NCBI GenBank assembly: GCA_964017235.1
Contig: OZ024935.1
Span: 8,308,001-8,372,000, forward strand
Length of the DNA: 64,000 bases
Source of the DNA: Sabellastarte sp. h YS-2021
Taxonomy: Eukaryota > Annelida > Polychaeta > Sabellida > Sabellidae
Direction of reading: 5' to 3'
Shown: one piece after another, positions 37,930-63,963 of the stretch
Layout of the letters: each line of letters opens with the position of its first letter
Numbering within the stretch: the first letter of the stretch is position 1
Notes under the pieces: model-generated
The model's database searches: none
What the model saw: the letters and a program-made list of their open reading frames with translations, nothing else
What the model was told of the DNA's origin: nothing
Position numbers and translations under genes: made by a program

Positions 37930-39180
37930 GTTGGACCAAGACCGATCTTCTCATTTATTCGTGGAGTAGTATTTGGAGTAGTATTTGCATAATCTTGCTA
38001 ACAAACAAATTGACAAACAGACAAATAGATGGTGATGAATTTAATACCTCCTTGGAGGAGGTAATAAAACATAAAACAAGCAAGAGTAACAAGATGGCCG
38101 CCAAAATTGGCGGGAAAACAATTTTTGAGAAAAGTCGCCAGTTGACTCTGCAAATACCCTGTGGGTCAAAAATTTCATCGAAATCGCTCTATCTCGCTCC
38201 GTTTCTGATAAACATGTTTTTGCGTTTAAGGCAGAAACTCAAGATGGCTGCCAAAAGTGGTGGGAAAACGATTTTTGGAAAAGTCGCAAGTAGACTCTGC
38301 AGATACTCTAGGAGTCAAAAATTTTGTCGAAATTGCTCTATCTCGCTCCGTTTCCAAGATAAACATATTTTTGCGTTTTATACAGAAATTAAAGATGGCC
38401 GCCAAAAGTGGTGGAAAAACGATTTTTTGGGAAAGTTGACAGAAGACTCTCAAGATACCCCGTGGGTCAAAAATTTCGTTGAAATCGCTCTATCTCACTC
38501 CGTTTCCGAGATGAACTCGTTTTTGTGTTTAACACAGAAATTCAAGATGGTCGCCAAAAAAGGTGGGAAAATGATTTTTGCGAAAAGTCTCCAGTAAACT
38601 CTGCAAATACCCTGTGGCTAAAAGATTTCATTGAAATTGCTCTATATTGCTCCGTTTCCGAGATAATTGAGTTTTTGTGTTTTCAGCGTTAAGAAAAATC
38701 ATGATGTTTAGTTAATTTAAAATAAGTCGGCCATTTTCAATTGGATCACTTACAAAAGGTAATGATTTCCAGACATCTATATAAGGAACCTACTTGCGAA
38801 CTTTCATGTGAATAGCTGAAACTCTTTTTAAGTTATCATCGGGACAAGCACACCCTTTTGAAAAACATGTTTTTGGTCATGTGACTTCTCTGATTGATTG
38901 AAATGTCATGACATCATATTCAGAAATTTTTCCCAGGGCTACTGCATACACCTGTCAAATATGAAGAGAATCCGCTTTATGGCTGAGAAGCCATTGCAAA
39001 AAGAAAATGCGGATCCGGCGGAGTCGCTTCTCCCATATACAAACAAGCATCCCTCACAGGACGCTTAATAACTGTGTGTCACAGACATGCTTTTTTACAT
39101 GGTTGAGAAATAATCATTTCATTATATCACTTTAACACAATCAGAACTTTCTTAGAGGTTCACCACATGCCAGGAAATCA
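37930..39180. repeat. unit-B-only insertion with ~151-bp tandem array
   Basis: Unit B carries about 1.9 kb (37395-39260) that is absent in A. Within it, 37960-38060 repeats the end module seen at 185-295, and 38091-38690 is a four-copy array with starts near 38091, 38241, 38393 and 38545 (box 'aagatggccgccaaaa'). A 200-codon plus-strand frame runs through the array only because the units stay near a multiple of three. Confidence 0.75.
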
Positions 39181-49000: not shown

Positions 49001-52000
49001 GCTTTAAGAACCAGAGATTGGTCTTCCTTGTACTTGTCTCATGATGTTAACAGTGCTTACAAGCATTTTATATCATCTGTGTATAATGAAGATTTTAATA
49101 ACAAGACCACTGCTGTGGTATGATCTCCCGCCACACTACATCAAAAAGTAGGTGAACAACATATTTGACAAACCTCCTTTAAATTGAATAGTTTTGCTGT
49201 TATAAATTATTTAAATCAAAAAAGTCAAAGTAGCTATTACTGAGTTAGCTATGGACCTACAGCTTTCAAAATTTGCAATGAGTTATTTGAGAAGAATTGG
49301 CTAAGTACAATACTTTTAAGAGATAATTTGCATTTACTCATTTTGAGTAGGTGAGTAATTATCTACGGGTCTGAAACTTCACCATGTGAAAGCTCTCCCA
49401 AAAGTAGATGAATGAGTTACTTGAGAAAAATTGGCTATCTGCAATACTTTTAGAGATAATTCGCATTTACTCATTTTGAGTAGGTGAGTAATTAGCTATG
49501 GGTCTGAAACTTCACCAAGTGAAAGCTCTCCTAAAAGTAGGTGAATGAGTTATTTGAGAAAAATTGGCTATCTGCAATACTTTTAGAGATAATTCACCTT
49601 TACTCATTTTCAGTAGGTGAGTAATTAGCTACGAGTCTGAAACTTCACCATGTGAAAGCTCTCCCAAAAGTAGATGAATGACTTAAAAAGTAGATGAACA
49701 ACTTATTTGAGAGAAATTGTGTAGCTGCAATACTTTTGAAGATATAAGGCATTTACTCATTATGGTTATCATTAAAAATTGACAAAGTAGCTATTACTCA
49801 CTTAGCTATGGAGATACACTTCCAAACTAGTGACCATGTTGTAGCTGTGGAGATAGTAGCTGAACAACATATTGGAACAAAATTGTGTAGCTGCAATACT
49901 TTTGAAGATATAAGCCATTTACTCATTATGGTTATCATCAAAGTAGCTATTACTCAGTTAGCTATGGAGTTACAGCTGTGAAAATTCACAATACAGTATA
50001 TCCAAAAGATAGGTGAACAACATATTCGACAAAAATCCTCTATATTCAATAGCTTTTGAGTTATAAGTGACTTGCTCAATGGTCAAATGTTAAACTTAGT
50101 ATAGCTATTACTCAGTTAGCTATGGTGCTACACCTTGGACACCTCACCATGATATAGTACATGAAGGAGTTGTTGAACAACATATTTCAGGCCAATATTG
50201 TAAGTAACAGTTACAAAGACAAAATCAATTTACTCATTTTGCTCATTGTTAATAACAGAAAATAGCTATTACTCACTTAGCTATGAAGATAGAACCCTAA
50301 AAATGGTACCATCTTGTAGGCATGGAGAAAGTAGCTGAACAACGTATTTTACAGAAACACTCTAAATGCAGTCGTTTTGGAGTTATGAGCACTTTACTCA
50401 AAGTAGCCACCATTGCTATTACTCACTTAGCTATGGTCCTAGGTGTGAAATAACAGCATCAAATGAAAGGACATAAGCAATAAGGTCATAAAAAACATTG
50501 AAAAGGCCAAGGAGAAACAACCAGTGTGATGTACAGCCCTTTATAAAAGCGTGACACACACTTAATAATAACACACGAACACACGCACACACGCACGGAA
50601 TGCGTTTTATAATCTCCCGCCCGGCCGACGGGAGATAATAAATGCTGTCCAATAAAGAAAATGAAATCAAATTACATGAGTAAGCCATGGCTTAGTAAAG
50701 GTCCGCTCAATGCCTGAAAGAAGAAAAACATTTGGTACAGAGCCTACGTAAAAACAAAATCAACGAAAGTATTGGATAAATACAAAAGATATAGAAACAA
50801 GCTTACTTCTATAATCAAAGTAGAAGCAAAAAAGGATTATACAGTTACATTTGCTAAGTGCATAAACAATGCTAAAGCTACTTGGAAGGTCCTGAATAAC
50901 AAAATCAGTAAAAAGAAAAGGAAAAAGAAATCTGTTCATTCATATCCTGACAAGTTGTGTGAAAATGGTGTTGAAATTACAAGTTAAAGAGGTATTGCCA
51001 ATGGCTTTAATAATTTCTTTGTAACTGTGGGACCAACTCTTACAAAAACATATCAGGGCCAAGAAATGGTGATATTTTTAAAATTATGTGAAACAGAAAC
51101 CAACATTCTATTCCATTCTCTAGATGGCGTAACAGAAAGTGAAATACTGAAAGTTGTAAATAATTGTAAAAATAAATAATCTTGTGATTCCAACAATTTG
51201 AGTATGCACATTGTTAAGTCTACATTCAGTGCAATAATTCAGCCTTTTACATAACTTTGTAATCTTTCTTTTGAATCTGGTTTTATTTCCTAATAAAATG
51301 AAAATAGCAAAAGTAATTCCTTTCATTAAAGCTGGTGAAAACTCCAGTTATACAATTATATAAAGTAAACAACCACCATCCACCACCTGAGATGTTGTCA
51401 GATGTAAGATTCACATGCCATGTTTTCTTGCAAGTTGTTTTCATATATTGAAGCCCTAGAAACAATTATTAGGGAAATATAAGACCTTTTTAGCATGACG
51501 ACTCAACATGACCTTAGAGCAGGAGTCAAAGGTCAAATGTGAGACTTGCATAAGATTTGCAGAACACGATTTGCAGGTCTTTTCAATGTGCCCCCATTTG
51601 ACATAAAAGATGTGATATGGCAGCTATTTTTTTCAAAACAAGGCCAAATTTACCCTCAGGCAAGCTTTTCTAGTCATTTACATTTCGTACAAATGCAATA
51701 TTTTAAATTTTAGAATACATCAATGATTTTTGTGCAATCAGCTATTTCAGCCATGTTGTTTTTTCAAATGAGTACCATAATTTTTTACAGACATCTTTTC
51801 ACAGCCGTAAACATTCTCTGCAAATTTGGTGAAGATATATCTTCATAACTGAATGAGATATAAAGCTTGATTTAAAAATGTGTCAAATGCACATTCACGC
51901 ACATAAAACATTTCATATTGTCCCAAACCCGGCCTTGGCCGGTGGGAGATTAAAATGCAACTGTACTAACATTGGTTTAATAACGCCCTTTCAAATTTAA

Positions 52001-55000
52001 AAAGTTTAACACCGAAAAGTATTTAAAGCATTGCCATGGCAACAGGTGTCAGATACCCTTCAAAACCTACTCAGCTGTAGACCCTGTTTTGATAAAGATA
52101 TATTGAAAACATGGTGAAAATCCATACATCGGTTTCCTCTGTGGAACACCCACAAATGTTAAAATCCAAAAATATTAAAAGCAATGCCATGGCAACAGTT
52201 GTTGCCAGATACCCCCAAACTTAATTAGATCTAGATCCTCTTGGGGTAAACATAACCTGAAAAATTGGTGAAAATCTGTGCATGGGTTTAGGCTGTGGAA
52301 CACCAACAAGCTTTAAAACACCAATATCTTAAAGTGTTGCCATGGCAACAGTTGTTACCGGATAATCCCTAAAACCTAATCCGCTCTAGATCCCCTTGGG
52401 GTAAACATAACCTGAAAATTTGGTGAAAATCCGTGAATAGGTTTATGCTCTGGCACACCCACAAGCTTTAGGCCCGTCGCCGCTGCTGCTCGGACAGCAT
52501 AGGGGATGACTATAACTCCAGCCTTTATGGGCTGGGGTTAAAAACTGCTGAAAGAAGATTTTCTGAGTACATTTTAAGAGTAACTTAAATCATAAATGTT
52601 GTATTTCTCTGAATAATATTCTATCGAGTGATTAAGCTGTAACTTAATTTTTTTGAAGTTTTTAATTGTTTTTATTTTAATTTTCTTTGTTATTTTTTGC
52701 TTCTATCTACCAGAAATATAAGTAAGTTAATTTTATATAGGTTTCAGAAGTAGGTGTTAGCATTAATATGCTTCTAACCTCAGTTATCCACCTTTTCACA
52801 TAAATTCTTGTATTACATACTTAGATTTATCATTGTGTTTTCATTGTAAAATATTATTAAATGTATGCATGTATACCTATATGGAATTGAGATTACATAT
52901 TATATTATTTTTATTCAGAAGCAAAATACAGAGTTAGTTGTTAAGGTGTAAAAAGTAGGTGGAAAACATATTGCAACAAAATACTGTAAATGCAATAGTT
53001 TTCAAGTTACAATTGATTTACTCAACAGTGAGAACCTCAAAGTAGCTATTGCCCATCAATGCAATGAGCTATAGGTTTGCAATTTTACTATGTTATAGCT
53101 GACCAAAAGTAGATGAATAAAATATTTAAACGAAATTCTTTAAGAGCAATAGTTTTCAAGTTACAATTGATTTACTCAACAGTGAAAACCTGAAAGTAGC
53201 TATTGCTCATCTGTGCAATGAGCTACAGGTTTGCAATTTTACTATGTTATAGCTGGTGCCGAAATAGGTGAACAACACATTTAAAAATATACTTTAAATG
53301 TAATAGTTTTAAGTTACAACTCTTTTACCCAACTGTGATAACCTGAAAGTAGTTATTGCTTAGCTATGCTACGAGCTACAAGTATATTCATTTCATTTAT
53401 GTTATTATAACTGACTGAAAAGTAGGTGAATAACATTTTTAAACAAAATACTGTAAATGCAATAGTGACTACTGATTTACTCAACAGTGATAACCTGGAG
53501 GTAGCTATTGTTAAAGGTCAACAATTTCACTATATTATAGCTGACCCATAAGTAGGTAATGACATATTTAAACAAAAATCTCTGAATGCAATAACTTTCA
53601 AGTTACAACTGATTTGCTTAACAGTGAACATCAAAGTAGCTGTTGTTTAGCTACCTGCAATTTTACTATGTTATAGCTGACCCAAAAGTAGATATATAAC
53701 ATATTTACACAAATTCTCTCAATGCAATGGTTTTCAAGTTACAAGTGATTTACATAACAAATGATAACCTAAGAGTAGCGATTACACAGCTATGCAGTAG
53801 GCTACAGGTCTGCAATTCTACTATGTTATAGCTTACTTTAAAGTAGGTGAATCACATATTGAAACAAAATACTGTAAATGCAATAGCTTTTTAATTTACA
53901 CCTGATTTACTCAATAGTGATAACCTGAAAGTAGCTATTGCTCAGCTATGCTACAGGCTACAGAACTGCAATTTTCCTATGTTATAGCTGACCCAAATGT
54001 AGCTGAATAACATATTAACACAAAATAGCTGCAACAGCTTTCAAGTTAAAGTGATTTTACCTTATGAAAGGTAGTTAAAAGTTATAAACTAGTTAATACT
54101 CACTTAGCTATTGGGATAGACACCCAAGTTACGCAGGCTGTAGCTATAGAACAAGAGGAGAGTGCCCGTGAACGGGCACTGTGTCAGCTGACTGAGTGTT
54201 TTTGATTTGTGAAGGTGATTAGAGGACAGAATAATTATCAGGAAAAGGGCTGTACAGAAATACAGTTAATGGTAACTGAACAGCAAGTTCGAAAGAAATT
54301 CCGAAGCTGACAGAAGAAAAGGATAAAAAAGTTGTGCCCTGTAAATGGTATTATGAAGGAAAATAACAAGGTAATTGTTTAAGTGTAAAAAATAGGTTAA
54401 AACATATTTAAAGAAATACTACAAATGCAATATCCTCGTTCGACCTTGAAGAAGGGGTCCAAGGTCAAATCTAACCACACAAATACATTCCCAGCCCATG
54501 ATTTCCTATGGTTTACCATTCCAAACCTCTAGGACCAATTATAAATGAGTTATAAGCACTTTTAAGCTTGGCTGTCCTCATTTGACCTTGAAGGAGGGGT
54601 CCAAAGGTCAAATCTGACCATACCAAAAGATTCCGAGCCAATGATTTCCTATGGGATGGTTTACCATCCCAAATCTCTGTCACCAATAATAAGCGAGTTG
54701 TAGGCACTTTCAATTTTCGCTATCCTCATTTGACCTTGAAGGAGGGTTCCAAGGTCGAATCGGACCATATCAACAGATTCACAGCCCATGATTTCCTGTC
54801 TGTTTACCATCCCAAACCTCTGGGACCAATAATAAGTGAGTTATAAGCACTTTTAAGTTTGGCTATCCTTGTTTGACCTTGAAGGAGGGGTCATTGAAGG
54901 TCAAATCTGACCACACCAAAAGATTCCCACCCCATGATTTCCTACAGGTTGGTTTATCATCCCAAACCTCTAGGATCAATAATAAGGGAGATATAAGCAC

Positions 55001-58000
55001 TTTTCATGACTGACAAAAAACACCTGTGGCGGCCATCTTGTTTCTCAAAATGAGGCCAAAAATATTCCCAGACAACATTTTATGGTTATTAATATATACT
55101 GCAAACTTAAGAAAGCTAGCTATAATATTTTTTTTCATCAGAGCAGTAATGGTGAAATCTCTCTCTACACACTGCGGCTATCCAGTGGATACAATGATTT
55201 ACTCAACAGTGAGAACCTGAAAGTAGCTATTGCTCAGCTATGCCATGACATAGAGGTCTGCAATTTCACTATGTTATAGCTGACCAAAAATTCTGTGAAT
55301 AACATATTTAACAAATTACTCTAAATGTAATAGTTTTCAAGTTACAACTGATTTACTCAACAGTGAGAACCTCAAAGGAACTATTACTCAGCTATGCAAT
55401 GAGCTACATGTCTGAAATTTTACTATGATATAGCTAACCCAAAAGTAGGTGAACAACATATTTAAGCAAACTACTGTAAATGCAATAGTTTTCAAGCTAC
55501 AACTGATTTACTCAATAGTGAGAACCTGAAAATAGCTATTGCTCCGCTATGCCATGAGCTATAGGTCTGTAATTTCACTATGTTATAGCTGACCCAAAAG
55601 TAGGTGAACAATATATTTTAACAAAATACTCCAAATGCAATATTTTTCAAGTTATAGTTGATTTACTCAACAGTCAGTACCTGAGAATAGCTATTGCTCA
55701 GTTGTGCCATGAGCTATAGGTCTATAATTTCACTATGTTATAGCTGACCCAAAAGTAGCTGAATAACATATTTGCACAAATTTCTGTAAATGCAATAGTT
55801 TTCCAATTATAACTGATTTACTCAACAGTGAGAACTTCAAAGTAGCTATTACTCAGCTATGAAATGAGCCACAGGTCTGAAACTTCACTATGTTATAGCT
55901 GACCCCAAAATAGGTGAATAACATATCGAAACAAAATACTCTAAATGCAATAGTTTTCAAGTTATAAGTGATTTACTCAACAGTGATAACCTAAAAGTAG
56001 CTATTACTCAGCTATGCCATGAGCTACAGGTCTGAAATTTTACTATGTTATAGCTGGCCCAAAAGTAGCTGAATAACATATTTATACGAAATTCTCTAAA
56101 TGCAATAGTTTTTAAGTTACAAGTGATTTTACTCATGATGGAAGTTACTGAAAAGCCCAAAAGTAGCTATTACTCACTTAGCTATTGAGACAGACACCCA
56201 ACTTACTCACCATATTGTAGCTATGAAAAAAGTAGCTGAATAACATATTTTAACAAAATGCTCTAAATGCAACACTTTTCAAGTTATAAGTGATTTACTC
56301 AACAGTGATAACCTAAAAGTAGCTATTACTCAGCTATGCCATGAGCTACAGGTCTGAAATTTTACTATGTTATAGCTGACCCAAAAGTAGCTGAATAACA
56401 TATTTATACGAAATTCTCTAAATGCAATAGTTTTCAAGTTATAAGCGATTTACTCAACAGTGATAACCTAAAAGTAGCTATTACTCAGCTATGCCATGAG
56501 CTACAGGTCTGAAATTTCACTATGTTATAGCTGGCCCAAAAGTAGCTGAATAACATATTTATACGAAATTCTCTAAATGCAATAGTTTTTAAGTTACAAG
56601 TGATTTTACTCATAATGGAAGTTACTGAAAAGCCCAAAAGTAGCTATTACTCACTTAGCTATTGAGACAGACACCCAACTTACTCACCATATTGTAGCTA
56701 TGAAAAAAGTAGCTGAACAACATATTTTCACAAAATGCTGTAAATGCAACACTTTTGAAGTTATAAGTGATTTAGTGCATGATTTCATGAATTTTAATGC
56801 ATTAAAAATTATTAAAAAAATTTATTAAAAAAAAAGTAAGACAGATCCAGGTCTCGTACTCACACAAGAAAATCTACCTCTGGCCTAGTACATATATGCA
56901 AGATATGAGAGAAATCCCTGCAATAGTCACTGAGAAAATTGTGATAAAAAGTTGAAATTTTCACACTTTTGGTGGGGGTACCCCCCTTGTAATGTCTCTA
57001 GCAAACAGACGAACAGACAGATTTGCATGCCTTGAACAATTTTTCATTCTCGATAGATAAGGTATCTTTTAAAAAAAACAGCATGTCTCTAGGCCTTGTA
57101 GTTTTGGAGAAGAAGCTGTTCACGCGGACGCGTACGCGTACGCCCACGCTGCAGAGTGATGACATAATGTCAGCTGACTGACAAGTCAGCTGACATAAAA
57201 AGTAGCTGAATAACATATTTTAACAAAATGCCCTAAATGCAATACTTTTCAAGTTGTAAGTGATTGAGTGCATGATTTCATGAATTTTAATGCATAAAAA
57301 ATAATATAATAATTAAGACAGATCCAGGCCTGATACTCACTCAAGGGAATCTACTGGCGGCCTAGTACATATATGCAATATAAGAGAGAAAGCCCTGCAA
57401 TAGCAATGAGGAAATTGTGATAAAGTGTTTAGATGTTCACACTTTTGGTGGGGGTACCTCACTTGTAATGTCTCTAGCAAACAGACAAACGAACAGATTT
57501 GCATGCCTTGAACATTTTTTTATCCTCGATAGATAAGGTATCTGTAAAAAAAAGAAACATGTCTCTGGGCCTTGTGATTTTGGAGAAGTTGTTCATGCAG
57601 ATGCGGATGCCAACACCCCAGAGTGACGACATAATGTCAGCCGACCGACAAGTCAGCTGACATAAAAAACTGGTCATATGTCCATAATAAGTCTCACAAC
57701 CTGCTCTCGACTGCCATGATTTATAAAGATCACTTGCATCATTAAGTCTTGTTCATGTGTGGGAAGCAGTGCAGATTAAAGTGCAGACTTGTACGACTTT
57801 TGCTCTCAATAAGCATCACCATCTTTGGTTGCTGTAGGTTTTGGAGATGAGGTTGATGATGTGAAGAAGGGCTACAGTGCAGCCAGACCATTACATTACA
57901 ATACTGTGCAACATGAAATGTGCATTGCTATGAAATATCATTGTTTGAGCAATAACTCTGATTTTGTGTAACTTAACGGTTTTTTCCAGACATTCAGATA

Positions 58001-61000
58001 CAAAATATTATCTTGTATTTTATAACTTAAAGGTTATGAAAATGAATTACACTCGAGTAACCTAGTGTGGGTTTCACTAAAGGACATAGCCTGGACTTAG
58101 ACTTCAAGTTAAGATTTAAAATGAAGCTAAGTCTGTGGTTGTAGACTTGGAGGGTTTCACAAAGCTAGGCTTTGGCTAAGTCTATCCAGGAGTAGGTTTA
58201 ACTTTTGTAAACAAAGGAAAAAACTTAGCAAAGACACAAGCTCAGAGTTCTGTCCCTGTCTTAGCCTAAGTCCAGGCTAAGTTTGAGACCCCTTGTGAAA
58301 CAAGCCCCTGGTATTTATGGCACAAGTAGTACCAGCAAAACAACAAAAGAGCACTTCCAGCACAACTGCATTACCAAAACTAGACCTAGTCCATTGGAGG
58401 GTGGATACATACTTACAAAAACCCTAGTTAGTAAGTAATTTACCTGGTACCCATACTAAGAGAAATAGTAAACACTATATGAGCACTGTAAGTCTGCGGA
58501 CATCCTTTAGACTTTCAAATACCTGCTATGCCAGTGTACCAGACCATGGCATATTTCTGCTGGATACTGAGCTGAAGTTTTGACACTGGGCACGGCTGGG
58601 TGATTGATTCAAATGACAAGATCAAATCCTCATCAAAGGTCGGACCATGAAGCCCCTCTATCAGAACCTCTGTTGATGTGTGGTTCAGATCCTCTAGTAA
58701 AAATATAAGATGTGATTCTTACTCGTTTATTTATAGCCAATAAAGTGGATCTACTATTTATGGAACTTTGAGAAGCATTTATTTTAAGTAGAACATGTTT
58801 ACAGAGCAGCTATGTTTTGGGCTTAAAATGTTAAGTCCACCTGGGAGTGGGCTTAACTTTTACAAGCTAAGATATAAATATGCCTACCACATTTGTTTCC
58901 ACTTCAAATTATGAAATGGCTGAAAATAAAATATAAATATGTACAATGGTATAAACATATAGAACACATTCCAAAAATAGTTTTTGGAAGTATTGTTCTA
59001 AATGTTAGCTCCACCTGGAGGGGGGCACAACTTTGTAAACAAAGACCTATATATGGCAAAATATAGATTTAGTATACCTGTCGTTATCTGCTCAGCATCC
59101 CTGGATTGGTTAGATATTTTGTGGTCACAGTGAGTAGATATGATCGAGACTTTAGAGTATGCAAGATCATGGGCACCTGTAAACAAGTTACAGAGAAAGA
59201 TAGGTAAATATTAATTGCATTAGTATACTGTATTAGTGAAGTCTGAAATTAACTCTGGGGAAACATATTTTCACTATTCATAGAACGTGGCAACATATTT
59301 ACAGTAACAGACAAGTAGTACCCTAGCCAGGGGATCCCGAACCGGATATCAGCTATAAAAGTTCCCCAAAAATTCCCGAGTCCCAATATGGATCTGGATC
59401 AATTTAAGGAGGAACAAGCCAGAGTTAGACCCTCTTTTATGTGAAAATAAGACCCCAGTGTAATGAAAAGGCTTTGTCTTACAGAGTAGATACTGTAGAA
59501 AAATCTCTAAAAGAATTTTGGAGTCTCAATCCACCTTTAGGAAGGTCAAAGTTCAACGTTCAAAGTTGGGGTTTTACATCCCATTCAACAGCCATGGTCA
59601 TATTGCGACAGGTCCTCAGTATTGCCACTTATGTGAGTCAAACCCCACACAGAGGTGACAGCCTGTGATCAGAAGTGGTAGAGTAAGAAATCTAAAATTT
59701 GCCACATATCTGAAATTCGCCACATGTGAAAATACTAATAAAATAAATGAATTGTGGTGAGATTTGTTGACTGTACAGTAAATTAAGGCTTTTTGAACTG
59801 AAAAATACCAATTTTTGGACAAAAACATCATTTTCTCCATAAAATTAACTAAGGTTTTAGAGGTGGCGAATTTTAGATTCCTGGCAAATTTTAGATTTCT
59901 TACTCTACCTGCTAACCGCTAGGCCCCCGTGGATCTTGTTTTAGTGGGGTTGACGCTGTGAGTAAAACTCACCTTGTGTGACAACATGACCCAACAATAA
60001 AAGCATAAGAAGACACTGAGTGGATACAGAGAGGAGAAGGCATCAGTGCTTAAGATGTATATGATCACATATACATGGCTCATAACATCTAACCCCAATT
60101 GGCGATGACAATCACTACTATCCCTGTAATTTATTTTGAGCTTGTGTCAGACTGTGATTGTTACTTACAAACTGACATCTGGTGGACAATTTATGGCTTA
60201 TTATGGAATACTACTTAACATCAAATTTAATGTGGCCTGTGTTTACCGATTGCACTTTTTAAAATAAGGTGTTAAAAGATGAATTTAACATTTACAAATT
60301 AAAGCATACAACAGTGGTAGGAAAGGTTAATACATTTCTCACAAAAAATGGAAATGGCCATAAATGTAAGCAAATTTATGGAGGAACATCCGCAAACTCA
60401 TTAGACACTTCCTGAACTGCATTGCCCTGATCAGTCTTTCAAACTTTGTAGTTTCATTTGACTCATAGAAGGGGAAGCATAGATCTCAGTTTCAACAAGA
60501 CTGAAAAACAGCCACTTGGGTTGTCATTCACTACAGTTTACTTTTTAATTGCCAATGCCAGAGTCTTACTACAGTTACTTATTTTAAACTACTTTCTCAA
60601 AGATTATTAAGTGTATTCTTTCATACAATTAAGCATCAAAGGTTTAACAAGAAATTAGTTAAATTAACCTTATCCTACAAGTGGGTTTCTTAATTTCTTG
60701 TGTGGGCTATCACAGCTCACAGTAAAATATTTAATATCCTGTAACTTTATTGATATGAAATGTGAACATTTATCTGTATATTGCCTTGCATAGGTGTTTG
60801 CATGTTTCTTTGTTTTATTGCAGGTTTATATGGTCCTTCTGTTCTGTGCTAGAAGACCGAAAACCCCTTTCGATCTTGTTTTCATGGAATTAAGTAAGGT
60901 TTTATAGGTGGCGAATTTTAGATTTCTGGCGAACTTTAGATATCTTACTCGATACCTTTAGGCTGTTTCAACCTCAGAGTCACTGAGTTGTTTTCCATGT

Positions 61001-61147
61001 CAAGTGTAACAAATTCCAGTGGTCCATTTGGTGGATTCAGGACACTCTTGTACTGGTACAAACCCTGCTGAGATTTCATAGGAATTTCATCCATTAGTAA
61101 AAGCTGTGTTTGTTCTCTGGTCAAGGTATCAATCACTTCTGCCTCGT
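39201..61147 (-). CDS. multi-RRM, proline-rich, acidic-tailed protein (5' end outside window)
   Basis: Unnamed gene. Exons on the minus strand: 60956-61147, 59078-59176, 58523-58693, 47717-47815, 47071-47238, 46263-46511, 44772-44875, 43245-43473, 42229-42296, 41007-41037 and 39201-40054. They join without a stop into 753 codons; the first visible exon starts in phase 1, so more lies upstream. Order: tail of one RRM-like fold, an unclear linker, three RRM-like folds, a polyproline tract, a basic helix (FMDELKKKMKRG), and a ~284-codon Ser/Glu/Asp-rich tail predicted to be disordered. The RRM pattern (strand ending in 'FE', then AE..I/L......L.V) most resembles the N-terminal RRMs of PARP10/PARP14-type proteins; no macro or catalytic PARP domain is present in the window. 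RNA binding is inferred, and RNP aromatic residues are weak, so some folds may bind protein instead. The order suggests an RNA- or protein-binding scaffold. Confidence 0.8.
41007..41037 (-). CDS. RRM gene mini-exon, 31 nt
   Basis: Acceptor 'tattacag', donor CAG|gtaagg, reads GPDRKETDTT; phase 0 in, phase 1 out, exactly what the neighbours need. The copy in unit A (23211-23241) has lost the donor. Confidence 0.68.
41970..42065 (-). mobile_element. tRNA-like SINE head
   Basis: Minus-strand A-box-like TGGCCTAGTGGGTAACA and B-box-like GGTTCCATCCC with tRNA-like spacing. No aminoacyl-stem pairing was found, so it is a SINE head and not a tRNA gene. Confidence 0.5.
42229..42296 (-). CDS. RRM gene exon: short Ser/Glu-rich exon
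   Basis: 68 nt, phase 1 in, phase 0 out, donor GAT|gtgagt. Reads IQLKKSNSLDTSEESDKGEN. The unit A copy is at 23515-23581. Confidence 0.7.
43245..43473 (-). CDS. RRM gene exon: polyproline tract and basic helix
   Basis: 229 nt, phase 0 in, phase 1 out. QQKALASPPMAPPGG is followed by a run of about 20 prolines coded by a GGN-rich microsatellite on the plus strand (43375-43435), then VSIPVFKVGKRKAE and FMDELKKKMKRG. The helix after polyproline recalls short actin- or profilin-related segments, but no WH2 motif is recognisable. The acceptor could be three bases further in (43470). Confidence 0.78.
43690..44770. other. intron sequence, nothing recognised
   Basis: Intron between the third-RRM exon and the proline-rich exon. 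Only chance frames. Confidence 0.5.
44772..44875 (-). CDS. RRM gene exon: end of third RRM-like fold
   Basis: 104 nt, phase 1 in, phase 0 out. VAEKLIGRGHCLVNNMMLCF closes the third RRM; QKFIDQIVKAQ leads into the proline-rich exon. Confidence 0.78.
45686..46225. mobile_element. foldback element with TTAGACTTA-type arms
   Basis: Left end 'cagtttcacaaaggttctta' with 'gacttaggctaag'; right end 'gtctgggctaagtccatacg' with 'gaaactga' forms the inverse. A second member lies at 58078-58310. This copy ends about 40 bp from the donor of exon 46263-46511. Target duplication not resolved. Confidence 0.55.
46263..46511 (-). CDS. RRM gene exon: end of second and start of third RRM-like fold
   Basis: 249 nt, phase 1 at both ends. 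Starts DAEAIVKGSPHRMKRIELKA (helix 2, last strand), then a linker, then RSVLIQPLGPGANLKTIEDI and GGYARVIFEDGQ of the next fold. Like the other RRM exons it breaks straight after strand 4. Confidence 0.82.
47071..47238 (-). CDS. RRM gene exon: first half of second RRM-like fold
   Basis: 168 nt, phase 1 at both ends. KLVIVTGMTDKVTEKKLQKY is strand 1 and helix 1; AELKIDRQNNMAFVEFEEL is strands 2-4. The clearest RRM match in the window. Confidence 0.82.
47717..47815 (-). CDS. RRM gene exon: second half of the RRM-like fold
   Basis: 99 nt, phase 1 at both ends. Begins EKSVVSSLCCDRNDELKVTL, helix 2 and last strand of the RRM begun at 58523-58693, and ends in a short linker (SDGDSVQKK). Confidence 0.75.
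47955..48065 (-). mobile_element. SINE family 2 copy
   Basis: 'ggttttaaggcccattcaaa', 'gggacaggtccttaggattg' and a B-box-like 'gggagtcaaacc' in inverted order, as at 59565. Confidence 0.6.
48330..51460 (+). mobile_element. non-LTR retrotransposon split by a satellite-bearing insert
   Basis: The first part (48330-49116) reads the end of an endonuclease domain ('FPAISKPTRLTNVSATLIDS', 'IFTNN') and DFNNKTTAV. The second part (50643-51460) continues 'CPIKKMKSNYMSKPWLSKG', 'YKRYRNKLTSIIKVEAKKDY' and 'NKMKIAKVIPFIKAGENSSY', the entry to the reverse-transcriptase domain. Several stops; inactive and 3'-truncated. The two parts meet almost without loss around the insert at 49117-50642. Confidence 0.75.
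49117..50642. mobile_element. satellite-bearing element inserted in the LINE
   Basis: Begins 'ggtatgatctcccgcc' and ends with a hairpin ATCTCCCG - CCCGGCCGA - CGGGAGAT (50611-50635) plus 'aataaa'. Flanked by TGCTGT (49111-49116 and 50643-50648), a likely target duplication. The interior is an array of 'gtagctattactca(g/c)ttagctatg' monomers with a regular ~134-bp sub-array at 49345-49690. Another copy of the 3' end, 'ggccggtgggagattaaa', is at 51942. No coding frame. The 3' hairpin recalls Helitron-type ends, but this is inference. Confidence 0.65.
51480..52545. repeat. repeat element with ~152-bp array
   Basis: Three imperfect units with 'gccatggcaacag' boxes near 52034, 52184 and 52337 and a shared 'tggtgaaaatcc' box, followed by a G/C-rich end (52469-52540, 'gtcgccgctgctgctcggac' then 'agcctttatgggctggggtt'). 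A dispersed repeat of uncertain class. Confidence 0.6.
52930..54160. repeat. satellite array, ~155-bp monomers, no head
   Basis: About seven to eight monomers sharing 'gtagctattgctcag.tatg', 'tactatgttatagctgac' and 'aatagttttcaagttacaa' boxes. More diverged from each other than those of the elements at 54160 and 61996. Confidence 0.8.
54160..57196. mobile_element. satellite-bearing element E1
   Basis: Head at 54162 is the hairpin GTGCCCGTGAACGGGCAC followed by TGTCAGCTGAC. Then come a four-copy ~145-bp array (54435-55010, 'ttgaccttgaaggaggggtc'), then ~155-bp monomers (55200-56780), the last of which form a three-monomer unit of 477 bp. The tail (about 56790-57196) has 'tctctagcaaacagacgaac' and closes with the hairpin TGTCAGCTGAC-tgacaa-GTCAGCTGACA. 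Ends are shared with the element at 61996, so this is a defined mobile family. No protein is coded. Confidence 0.75.
57197..57665. repeat. tandem second copy of the E1 tail
   Basis: Repeats about 56708-57196, from one partial monomer through the tail hairpin (57638-57664), with the first hairpin arm mutated to 'tcagccgaccg'. Confidence 0.8.
58078..58310. mobile_element. foldback element with TTAGACTTA-type arms
   Basis: 'gggtttcactaaaggacata' and 'ggacttagacttcaagttaa' at the left, 'tagcctaagtccaggctaag' and 'ccccttgtgaaacaagcccc' inverted at the right. Same family as 45686-46225; in the large intron just downstream of exon 58523-58693. Confidence 0.6.
58523..58693 (-). CDS. RRM gene exon: first half of an RRM-like fold
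   Basis: 171 nt, phase 1 at both ends. Reads STEVLIEGLHGPTFDEDLIL ... KYAMVWYTGIA: strand 1 with a glycine turn, helix 1 and strands 2-4. The fold is completed by the exon 10.7 kb away at 47717-47815 (EKSVVSSL...). Confidence 0.75.
59078..59176 (-). CDS. RRM gene exon: linker
   Basis: 99 nt, phase 1 at both ends; reads AHDLAYSKVSIISTHCDHK and on to QITT. Supported by clean acceptor (ttacag) and donor (gtatac) and by the in-frame join to both neighbours. No motif of its own. Confidence 0.65.
59560..59935 (-). mobile_element. SINE family 2 copy interrupted by a MITE
   Basis: 3' end 'ggggttttacatcccattca' at 59570, B-box region at 59635-59660, and the tRNA-like A-box 'GCCTAGCGGTTAGCAGG' in minus orientation at 59909-59926. 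The MITE at 59681-59905 lies between the two boxes, splitting the pol III promoter. Confidence 0.75.
59681..59905. mobile_element. 225-bp foldback MITE with TA target duplication
   Basis: Perfect 24-bp terminal inverted repeats beginning GAGTAAGAAATCTAAAATTT. Flanked by TA on both sides (59679-59680, 59906-59907), as in Tc1/mariner-type insertions. Subterminal word 'AATTCGCCAC' repeats next to the arms. No coding capacity. Confidence 0.92.
60880..60950. mobile_element. right end of the same MITE family at a splice donor
   Basis: 'ggtggcgaattttagatttc' and 'tggcgaactttagatatctt' match the right end of the 59681-59905 element. Its terminus (60950) lies five bases from the end of the intron-side donor of exon 60956-61147. 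The left end is not found, so it may be truncated. Confidence 0.7.
60956..61147 (-). CDS. RRM gene exon: RRM tail and linker
   Basis: 192 nt, phase 1 at both ends. Starts DEAEVIDTLTREQ, the second-helix part of an RRM whose first half must lie on an upstream exon, and continues to LEFVTLDMENNSVTLRL. The donor is weak (AAAG|gtatcg) because a MITE end begins at intron position 6. Confidence 0.72.
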
Positions 61148-61565
61148 CTGTAATGATAGATGGAAATAACTAAACTCCATTAATTTGTAATATTTGATAT
61201 AGTTTTTACATAAAACAATGTTTGCAACTTTGGTCTCTACACTTGAAATATCAAGATTGTAGGCTTGAAAGTGAGCCCAAGATTCAGTTAAATTTTAAGA
61301 TGAATAATTTAACTCCAAGATTAGGCATAGTCCCTTTCATAAAACCAGTCCCTGAGTCCTTCTGCCTGTTCAGGATGATTTAAGCTTTTTGTTTGAGCAT
61401 TAAATAGAGAATATCCATTTAACCAAAGCCTTGGAGACAAGTTTTTTTTTAATTTGGCCATAATTTATAACATTTGATTCACCAAATGAAGAGAAGTATA
61501 TATTATTACTTCTGAAGTTCAAGAGTATAACTGTTTTTCATAACCCAAGTAAATATTGTAGTTAC

Positions 61566-61741
61566 CCAGCAGATTTATTACTTTCAATAAATGGAAAGAT
61601 TAATTTAAGCAATGAATTTCTTTTTGACTGTATAAAGCATGTAGTTTTTCTTGCTAATAAAAAGTCCACTAGATACTCAACATCCAGTTTGGCTATGTTT
61701 GACACATACAGCAGATTTAATGCAAATATAGAACTTTCATA
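61566..61741 (-). other. possible upstream exon of the RRM gene
   Basis: Open frame reading NLLYVSNIAKLDVEYLVDFL and ending ESNKSAG before TAA. Strand-1/helix-1 character would suit the missing first half of the RRM whose tail starts exon 60956-61147. However, the only donor (GG|gtaac) leaves phase 2, while the next exon needs phase 1, so the join fails. Either chance, a decayed exon, or I have misread the boundary. Confidence 0.25.
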
Positions 61742-61995
61742 TGTTGTGTCTGACAATAGGTAGAAGTTATTTTTAAGTCCCAGTGGTTTCCAGGGTAAAA
61801 AGTAGGGGCAACTACAGGTCTGACTAACAGGAAGCTACCACTACTTAGAAGCCATTTTGATATATCATGTGTGATGTGTGATAAAAAGACTGTTCAGCAT
61901 ATTTCTAAAAGTAATGTTAATGTAATGTAAAATTACATTTTAATTTACTTTTGGAATGTAATGCATTACATTACACATTATTTTAAACAAGCAAT

Positions 61996-63963
61996 CAGTG
62001 CCCATGAACGGGCTCTGTGTCAGCTGACCATGTGTTTTGAGTTTCAGAGTAGAAGTGACAGAAGAAAAGGACACAAAAGTTGTGCCCTGGAAATGGTGTT
62101 CAGAAGGAAAGTAAGAAGGTAACTGTTAAGGTGTAAAAAGTAACTTAAAAACATATTTAAAAAAAATATTGCAAATGCAATAGTTTTAATTTTACTATGT
62201 TATAGCTGACCCCAAAATAGGTGAATAACATACTGAAACTAATCTAACTGCAATACTTTTCAAGTTATAAGTGATTTACTGAACAGTGATAACCTAAAAG
62301 TAGCTGTTACTCAGCTATGCCATGAGCTACAGGTCTGAAAGTTTACTATGTTATAGCTAACCCAAAAGTAGCTGAATAACATAATTACACAAAATTCTCT
62401 AAATGCAATAGTTTTCAAGTTACAAGTGATTTTACTCATGATGGAAGTTACTGAAAAGTCCAAAAGTAGCTATTACTCACTAAGCTATTGAGATAGACAC
62501 CGTAACTACTCACTATGTTGTAGCTATAGAGAGTGTAGCTGACTAACATATTTTAACAAAATGCTCTAAATGCAATACTTTTCAAGTTATAAATGATTTA
62601 GTGTTGAGTAAGATACTCAAAGTAGCTATTACTCAGCTATGCAATAAGCCACAGGTCTGGAATTTTATTATGTTATAACTGACCCCAAAATAGGTGAATA
62701 AAAAAGTGAAGCTAAATACTCTAAATGCAATAGCTTTCAAGTTATAAGTGATTTACTAAACAGTGATAAAATAAAAGTAGCTATTACTCTGGTATGTTAT
62801 GAGCTACAGGTCTGAAATTTTACTATGTTATAGCTGACCCAAAAGTAGCTGAATAACATTTACACAAAATTCTCTAAATGCAATAGTTTTCAAGTTACAA
62901 GTGATTTTACTCATGATCCAAGTAACTGAAAAGTCCAAAAGTAGCTATTACTCAGTTAGCTATTGAAATAGACACCCAAGTTACACACCATGTTGCAGCT
63001 ATGGAAAAAGTGTCTGAATAAGATGTTTTAACAAAATGCTGTAAATGCAATACTTTTCAAGTTATAAATGATTTAGTGTTGAGTAAGAACCTCAAAGTAG
63101 CTATTACTCAGCTATGCTATGAGCCACATGTCTGGAATTTTACTATGTTATAGCTGACCCTAGAAGAGGTGAATAACATAGTGAAACTAAATTCTCTAAA
63201 ATTAATGCAATACTTTTCAAGTTATAAGTGATTTACTGAACAGTGATAACCTAAAAGTAGCTATTACTCAACTATGTCATGAGCTACAGGTCTGAAATTT
63301 TACTATGTTATAGCTGACCCAAAAGTAGCTGAATAACATATCCACACAAAATTCGCTAAATGCAATAGTTTTCAAGTTACAAGTGATTTTACTCATGATG
63401 GAAGTTACTGAAAAGTCCAATAGTAGCTATTACTCACTTAGCTATTGAGATAGACACCGTAACTTCTCACCATGTTGTAGCTATGGAGAGTGTAGCTGAC
63501 TAACATAGTTTAACAAAATGCTCTAAATGCAATACTTTTCAAGTTATAACTGATTTAGGGCATGATTCATTAATTTTAATACATTAAAAATTATTGAAAA
63601 AATTTATAAAAAAAATAATTAAGAAAGATCCAGGTCTGACACTCACACAAGGGAATCTACTTGTGACCTAGTACATATGTGCAAGATATTAGAGAAATCC
63701 CTGCAATAGTCACTGAGAAAATTGTGATAAAGTGTTAAAATGTTCATACTTATAATGTACTTATAATGGCTCTAGCAAACAGACGAACAAACAGATCTAC
63801 ATACCTTGAACAATTTTTTCAAGTAGATAAGCTATCTTTTAAAAAAAACAGCATGTCTCTGGGCCCTGTAGTTTTGTCGGAGAAGTCACTCCCACGTATG
63901 CGTACGTCCATGCCTCAGAGTGATGCCATAATGTTAGCTGACTGACAAGTCAGCTGACATAAA
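61996..63963. mobile_element. satellite-bearing element E2
   Basis: Same head as E1 (hairpin GTGCCCATGAACGGGCTC at 61998, then TGTCAGCTGAC) and same tail (hairpin ending 63963). Inside are about nine monomers arranged as repeats of two similar ~155-bp monomers plus one distinct ~165-bp monomer; the distinct one starts at 62451, 62926 and 63408, a 475-482 bp period. It lies upstream of the visible RRM-gene exons, probably in another intron or 5' of the gene. Confidence 0.8.

Follow-up and report, generated by a model that had tools for sequence, protein, structure and literature searches.

The window, as we call the whole 64,000-bp stretch of Sabellastarte DNA analyzed here (G+C content of 34.5%, no N), contains one element family in three copies (E0, E1, and E2). 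In a fourth element, F, the monomers are related to theirs but the subTIR is another. The reading of E0, E1, and E2 as noncoding HINEs (nonautonomous Helentrons) on the minus strand is well supported by the form of their ends. E1 (54150 to 57199, minus strand) is a complete element of ~3.05 kb that has its ends in common with E2 and is inserted in E0; an A run limits the placement of its ends to within a few bases. From its true 5' end (57168 to 57199), E1 continues into a 155-bp array (55162 to 56782) made of monomers E1_01 (truncated) to E1_10 plus a truncated terminal monomer P (56705 to 56782), then a second array that Tandem Repeats Finder resolves as 3.9 copies of a 143-bp repeat (54431 to 55004), and finally a true 3' end of 43 nt (54150 to 54192), all on the minus strand. 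E2 (61986 to 63963, minus strand) is likewise complete, at ~1.98 kb, and its array (62212 to 63566) reads A C, B A C, B A C, P. The older E0 lies on the minus strand in two parts. Its 3' part (52912 to 54150) holds a truncated 3' module, seven plain monomers, and one C monomer (53995 to 54150), and its 5' part (57197 to 57667) holds a terminal P (57198 to 57275), a 5' module, and a subTIR with an inverted copy (57635 to 57662). F (49100 to 50639, minus strand, ends uncertain by ~6 bases) is HINE-like. Within the 3' module, ~87 bp of E1 (54209 to 54302) faces a gap in E2 and is either an insertion in E1 or a deletion in E2.

Searches for a partner, coding sequence, or relatives were negative within the following scopes. 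Six frames of 34001 to 63999, with stops given as X, contained no Pfam match to Rep or helicase at an E value of 0.01, and the sole match at or below that value, New_glue, fell below its cut-off. Seven of the 16 window open reading frames (3 of the 9 in the first 34 kb) were compared to Pfam and gave matches below curated cut-offs only, and tRNA and Rfam scans returned nothing. The exact tail palindrome was absent from viral_contigs, and an exact 20-base monomer word was absent from both viral_contigs and genome_contigs. Across the literature text open to searching, the subTIR word retrieved papers on other subjects only, and six monomer or module strings retrieved none.

Terminal anatomy and class

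The ends of the family are marked by the word TGTCAGCTGAC. It occurs exactly six times on the two strands of the window, each time within E0, E1, or E2, and it never appeared in 100 dinucleotide shuffles (mean of 0.00, maximum of 0). Exact copies lie in inverted orientation near both ends, at 54182 (plus) and 57185 (minus) in E1 and at 62018 (plus) and 63949 (minus) in E2, and E0 retains the 5' subTIR end only. GTGCCCRTGAACGGGC is found with no mismatches at two sites, 54162 and 61998, and the tail palindrome is found with up to two mismatches at three, 57170, 57637, and 63934. E1 and E2 do share both ends, as the original prediction had claimed.

The two ends of an element are built differently. 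On the minus strand, the 5' ends of all three elements read TTTATGTCAGCTGACTTGTC.. followed by an inverted copy; each starts with TTTATGTCAGCTGAC, and the inverted copy that comes next has one mismatch in E0 and in E2. The order TTTA, subTIR, inverted copy is found in three of three, with the terminus itself resting on one joined site. In E1, the subTIR occupies 57185 to 57195 and the inverted copy occupies 57168 to 57178, and the whole is foldable. The 3' ends of E1 and E2, 43 nt each, run from the inverted word through a hairpin and a short spacer to CTTGTT. In E1 these are the subTIR at 54182 to 54192, the hairpin at 54162 to 54179, and CTTGTT at 54150 to 54155, such that the subTIR lies 33 to 43 nt and the hairpin 13 to 30 nt from the 3' end. 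Folded as single-stranded DNA, the 5' ends were more stable than shuffles (z = -7.12 for E1, -7.51 for E0, and -3.96 for E2), as was the 3' end of E1 (z = -4.49). For the 3' hairpins of E2 (z = -1.01) and F (z = -0.87), equally good folds came from 30 and 36 of 200 shuffles, respectively, and neither hairpin was better than shuffles.

Published HINEs follow a common plan, with inverted subTIRs of 11 to 15 bp near the two ends and insertion into TT or T-rich sites that are not duplicated. The subTIR lies 2 to 4 nt from the 5' end, targets are T rich, and toward the 3' end the subTIR lies ~38 to 60 nt and a palindrome ~8 to 35 nt from the terminus (PMC4067079); oyster HINEs have a 5' subTIR plus inverted repeat and a 3' subTIR plus palindrome (PMC7492417). 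Because the end layout agrees with this plan, what had been called the head and tail of E1 and E2 appear to be the true 3' and 5' ends, respectively. They are real shared ends but were named in reverse of the element's own direction, and the class, which had been left undecided, is indicated by the same anatomy to be HINE. E1 sits in an A run on the plus strand and F in TTATTA on the minus strand, and such runs hide any short target duplication. The window holds no empty site for E2. A degenerate GCGTAC run was seen by eye in the 5' flank of E1, with no call by Tandem Repeats Finder.

How E0, E1, and E2 move can be proposed from their ends. As derivatives of Helentron rolling-circle transposons, they would presumably be mobilized in trans by the Rep/helicase of an autonomous Helentron, which would recognize the 5' subTIR, the 3' subTIR, and the 3' hairpin. 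The 155-bp arrays are cargo. Alternatively, they could move by cut and paste, as foldback or MITE-type elements bounded by terminal inverted repeats. An inverted 11-bp word is indeed common to both ends, and DINE-1 itself was reportedly once filed as a MITE, but we consider this alternative improbable, as the ends differ (a palindromic subTIR at one; a subTIR, separate hairpin, and 12- to 14-nt tail at the other) and the target shows no clear duplication. Also improbable are hairpin-ended single-strand (HUH Y1) elements like IS605 or Replitrons, which the well-folding 5' ends and E1 3' end and the A/T-rich target would suit, since the layout of subTIR, inverted repeat, and 3' palindrome is that described for Helentrons (PMC7492417, PMC4067079).

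Satellite-carrying elements of this type are already known from oysters and flies, and E0, E1, and E2 are new members. Cg_HINE of Crassostrea gigas (PMC7492417) is alike in its 5' subTIR plus inverted repeat, 3' subTIR plus palindrome, T-rich targets, central repeats of ~140 to 180 bp, related monomers under diverged flanks, and insertion into other repeats, but its 5' microsatellite has at best a degenerate counterpart in E1, and the likeness is one of layout. Some Cg_HINEs, such as Cg_HINE_10_13 and Cg_HINE_11_12, also have two consecutive arrays (PMC7492417). The mite HINEs share palindromic subTIRs, and both they and Drosophila DINE-1 share the subTIR 2 to 4 nt from the 5' end, the 3' stem-loop, the TT preference, and tandem repeats in some copies (PMC4067079); they differ in that no autonomous Helentron partner was seen for the E elements in 34001 to 63999. 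The bivalve pearl-type elements CvA, CvE, DTC84, and MgE are similarly modular, with short arrays of ~160-bp central repeats, but have up to six monomers, whereas the E arrays have 8 to 10 plus a truncated one and are partly mosaic (PMC5139131, PMC7492417). Published cases cover HINEs that bear satellites, arrays in pairs, elements placed within other repeats, and loci that are shuffled and nested (PMC7492417, PMC12628747), and satellite-carrying Helentrons are a known route for tandem-repeat spread. The second array of E1 had no match in E2 at an E value of 0.001, and its 143-bp repeat is ~72% identical over 85 to 89 bp to parts of 51406 to 51542, a hint that E1 may have taken up repeats from another element family.

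Apparent insertion of E1 into E0

The tail palindrome at 57637 was unaccounted for when only E1 and E2 were recognized. Both of those elements are real, and we read the extra tail as the 5' end of a third, older element, E0. The left flank of E1 stops in E0's C monomer, and the right flank resumes at the passage from C to the next monomer, within the uncertainty set by the A run. Joining 54150 to 57197 gives ..CTGTAGCTATAGAAAAAAGTAGCTGAATAAC.. and restores the C-to-next-monomer junction. When the joined C and following half-monomer were compared to uninterrupted ones, five of five aligned, with 82 to 84% identity over 229 to 234 sites. E0 is without a 3' end beyond ~52912, and inward of that point it matches the 3' modules of E1 and E2. 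Judged from the joined flanks, an A/T run in the satellite of E0 itself was the site at which E1 entered, splitting E0 in two.

Two adjacent tails might instead have arisen by rolling-circle tandem duplication of a 5' end, with no nested insertion. Helitron arrays in which several 5' ends accompany a single 3' end have been reported (PMC12628747), but we give this little credence. The sequences flanking E1 on its two sides follow directly on each other within a single C-to-next-monomer junction, and the two 5' modules are 13% different. We therefore prefer nested insertion to a plain duplication of the tail. With the terminal half-monomer included, the 5' modules are 87% identical between E1 and E0, 85% between E1 and E2, and 83% between E0 and E2. 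With its nested insertion and reconstructed insertion site, the E0, E1, and E2 group offers a clear small example of satellite-carrying elements.

The three-monomer pattern

The 155-bp arrays of E1 and E2 hold a distinct monomer of ~167 bp, C, that recurs every 477 to 480 bp. C starts at 56061 and 56538 in E1, a single interval of 477 bp, and at 62364, 62841, and 63321 in E2, with intervals of 477 and 480 bp, in keeping with the recurrence of 475 to 482 bp given in the original prediction. Tandem Repeats Finder reported periods of 477 (55296 to 56774) and 475 (62188 to 63558). In E2, monomers of a type are 89 to 95% identical, A is 77 to 82% identical to B, and C is 66 to 71% identical to A or B, and monomers of the same type one unit apart are closer than neighbors, the relationship by which higher-order structure is recognized in satellites. 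A higher-order unit had been predicted for both elements. It runs through the whole E2 array, but in E1 it is confined to the 5'-proximal part, ~55906 to 56782 on the minus strand, which reads A, C, P/A mosaic, C/A mosaic, C, P; E1_01 to E1_05 are all of the plain 155-bp type. Compared with the sequence 477 bp further on, 40-bp windows of E1 are 95 to 100% identical for starts of 55940 to 56220 and 80 to 92% identical for starts of 55740 to 55920. The two C copies of E1 are 99% identical to each other and 90 to 91% identical to those of E2, and the middle C of E2 is 90 to 91% identical to its neighbors, as far from them as from E1. In all three elements, C adjoins the truncated terminal monomer P beside the 5' module.

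The monomers next after a C resemble P. We defined five P-diagnostic sites, without using the tested rows, as those with a state common to the three terminal P monomers and unlike the one most frequent among the other monomers. All three of the full monomers after a C carry five of five P states, and none of the 22 other E monomers carries more than two (the eight F monomers and the truncated E1_01 were left out of the count). By half-monomer comparison, the left half of E1_08 is P-like (94%) and its right half A-like (99%), and E1_09 combines a C-like left half (96%) with an A-like right half (99%), although the C-like call rests on three sites, of which 4 of 18 other monomers already match two. 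In E2, the left half of E2_03 is closest to E2's own P (97%), and that of E2_06 is closest to E1_08 (90%), with 85% identity to E2's own P. The mosaics of P-left/A-right and C-left/A-right indicate exchange within monomers. The units also differ, being [P/A, C/A, C] in E1 and [B, A, C] in E2. Because post-C monomers carry P states in their left halves and the two units differ, the pattern probably grew inside the elements, and we find that more likely than its having been carried in ready-made. We propose that blocks of C plus P were duplicated by midmonomer exchange, separately in E1 and E2, a mechanism and a timing that we infer. For E2, P can equally well be read as a B monomer that has been truncated, with B as an older type, and since its middle C is no closer to its neighbors than to E1, the E2 unit may be as old as the split between E1 and E2.

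The foremost alternative is that the three-monomer unit is ancestral, having been captured as a ready-made satellite, carried by the family, and subsequently obscured by conversion. E0 too has a C-type monomer, three of eight F monomers group with the C type (support of 90/93, not starred), the C copies of E2 are nearly as far from one another as E1 is from E2, and P may be a truncated B. E0, however, contains a single C, the units of E1 and E2 are not the same, and the near-identical C copies are specific to E1. We regard an ancestral unit as possible but on the unlikely side. Growth inside the elements is our preferred reading, and we are largely confident of the account as a whole, in which one minus-strand HINE family, moved in trans, carries 155-bp arrays as cargo, E1 entered E0, and the three-monomer pattern was made within the elements.

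We further speculate that Helentron elements are nurseries of higher-order satellite structure, in which arrays of ~10 monomers would give rise to higher-order repeats on many independent occasions. In each element, the junction monomer P would recombine with interior monomers to give new mosaic units, and amplification of these would start at the 5' side and might accompany rolling-circle copying. We hold this only tentatively and think it rather doubtful, as the most alike neighboring monomers of F lie toward its 3' end, which counts against 5'-side amplification. As a rule, a 5' bias of amplification is unsupported by F. Long homogenized arrays hide the first steps of higher-order repeat formation, and if private mosaics were common genome-wide, small dispersed arrays would show those steps repeatedly. 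The original prediction also suggested that transposition seeds satellite arrays, an idea that found no backing in the window, where no long free array of the 155-bp monomer is present.

Higher-order structures are mentioned for grasshopper satellites in general (PMC7754599). Neither "higher order" nor "higher-order" appears in PMC8268682, PMC11136912, PMC7492417, or PMC4067079, "HORs" and "trimer" are absent from PMC7492417, "higher-order" is absent from PMC12628747, and in PMC5139131 both spellings occur in reference titles only. Literature pairing Helentron with higher-order repeat, as far as its accessible text goes, described no such units inside a Helentron. Mosaic three-monomer units were likewise not found described in the literature examined, a scope that most subscription papers fall outside, and we make no claim that they are absent from print.

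Element F and other repeats in the window

F has the subTIR-like words TATCTCCCG and ends at the 3' side in CTTGTT, as do E1 and E2. Its monomers match E monomer profiles by nhmmer, with pairwise identities of 50 to 75%, and three of eight group with the C monomers at a support of 90/93, short of the program's star. The F and E elements share one monomer superfamily. F also has its own 133-bp variant array (49277 to 49685). When F is excised (49100 to 50639), a frame stays open across the junction ..YNEDFN|KCCPIKK.., with 72 residues before it and 25 after it and then a stop; the join was chosen by us, and another in-frame join with three more bases is possible. F therefore seems to interrupt a decayed retrotransposon-like reading frame at an insertion site that can be reconstructed. 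The frame gave no accepted Pfam match (Exo_endo_phos at an E value of 0.19 for one 31-amino-acid piece and UPF0236 at 0.0022, below its cut-off). It may be a decayed LINE, which it resembles in its GDFN and SDN.P words and lysine-rich linker. The insertion sites reconstructed for E1 and the related F bear out the earlier view of discrete mobile elements with satellite-like internal arrays.

Two further sequences in the window are likely HINEs of other families. One (G, 51380 to 51960) has a palindromic 5'-end-like sequence near 51955, TTTTAATCTCCCACCGGCC.., and a distant relative of the 143-bp repeat of E1 (51406 to 51542) sits beside this palindrome. The other (H, 51990 to 52530) has a palindromic 5'-end-like sequence near 52527, TTTTTAACCCCAGCC.., and adjoins an array of 2.9 copies of a 154-bp repeat. 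An inverted repeat at 59677 to 59909 with 55-bp arms that are 87% identical (GGTAGAGTAAGAAATCTAAAATTTGCC..) looks like a small foldback element, and a third copy lies near 60900 (60900 to 60950, 82%). Outside these elements, 38090 to 38666 holds a tandem array of 3.8 copies of a 152-bp repeat (CAAGATGGCCGCC..) that is unmatched by the 155-bp monomer profile, and 2306 to 2921 holds an array of 21- to 22-bp units in which CTAACTTG and CAGTTAG words alternate.
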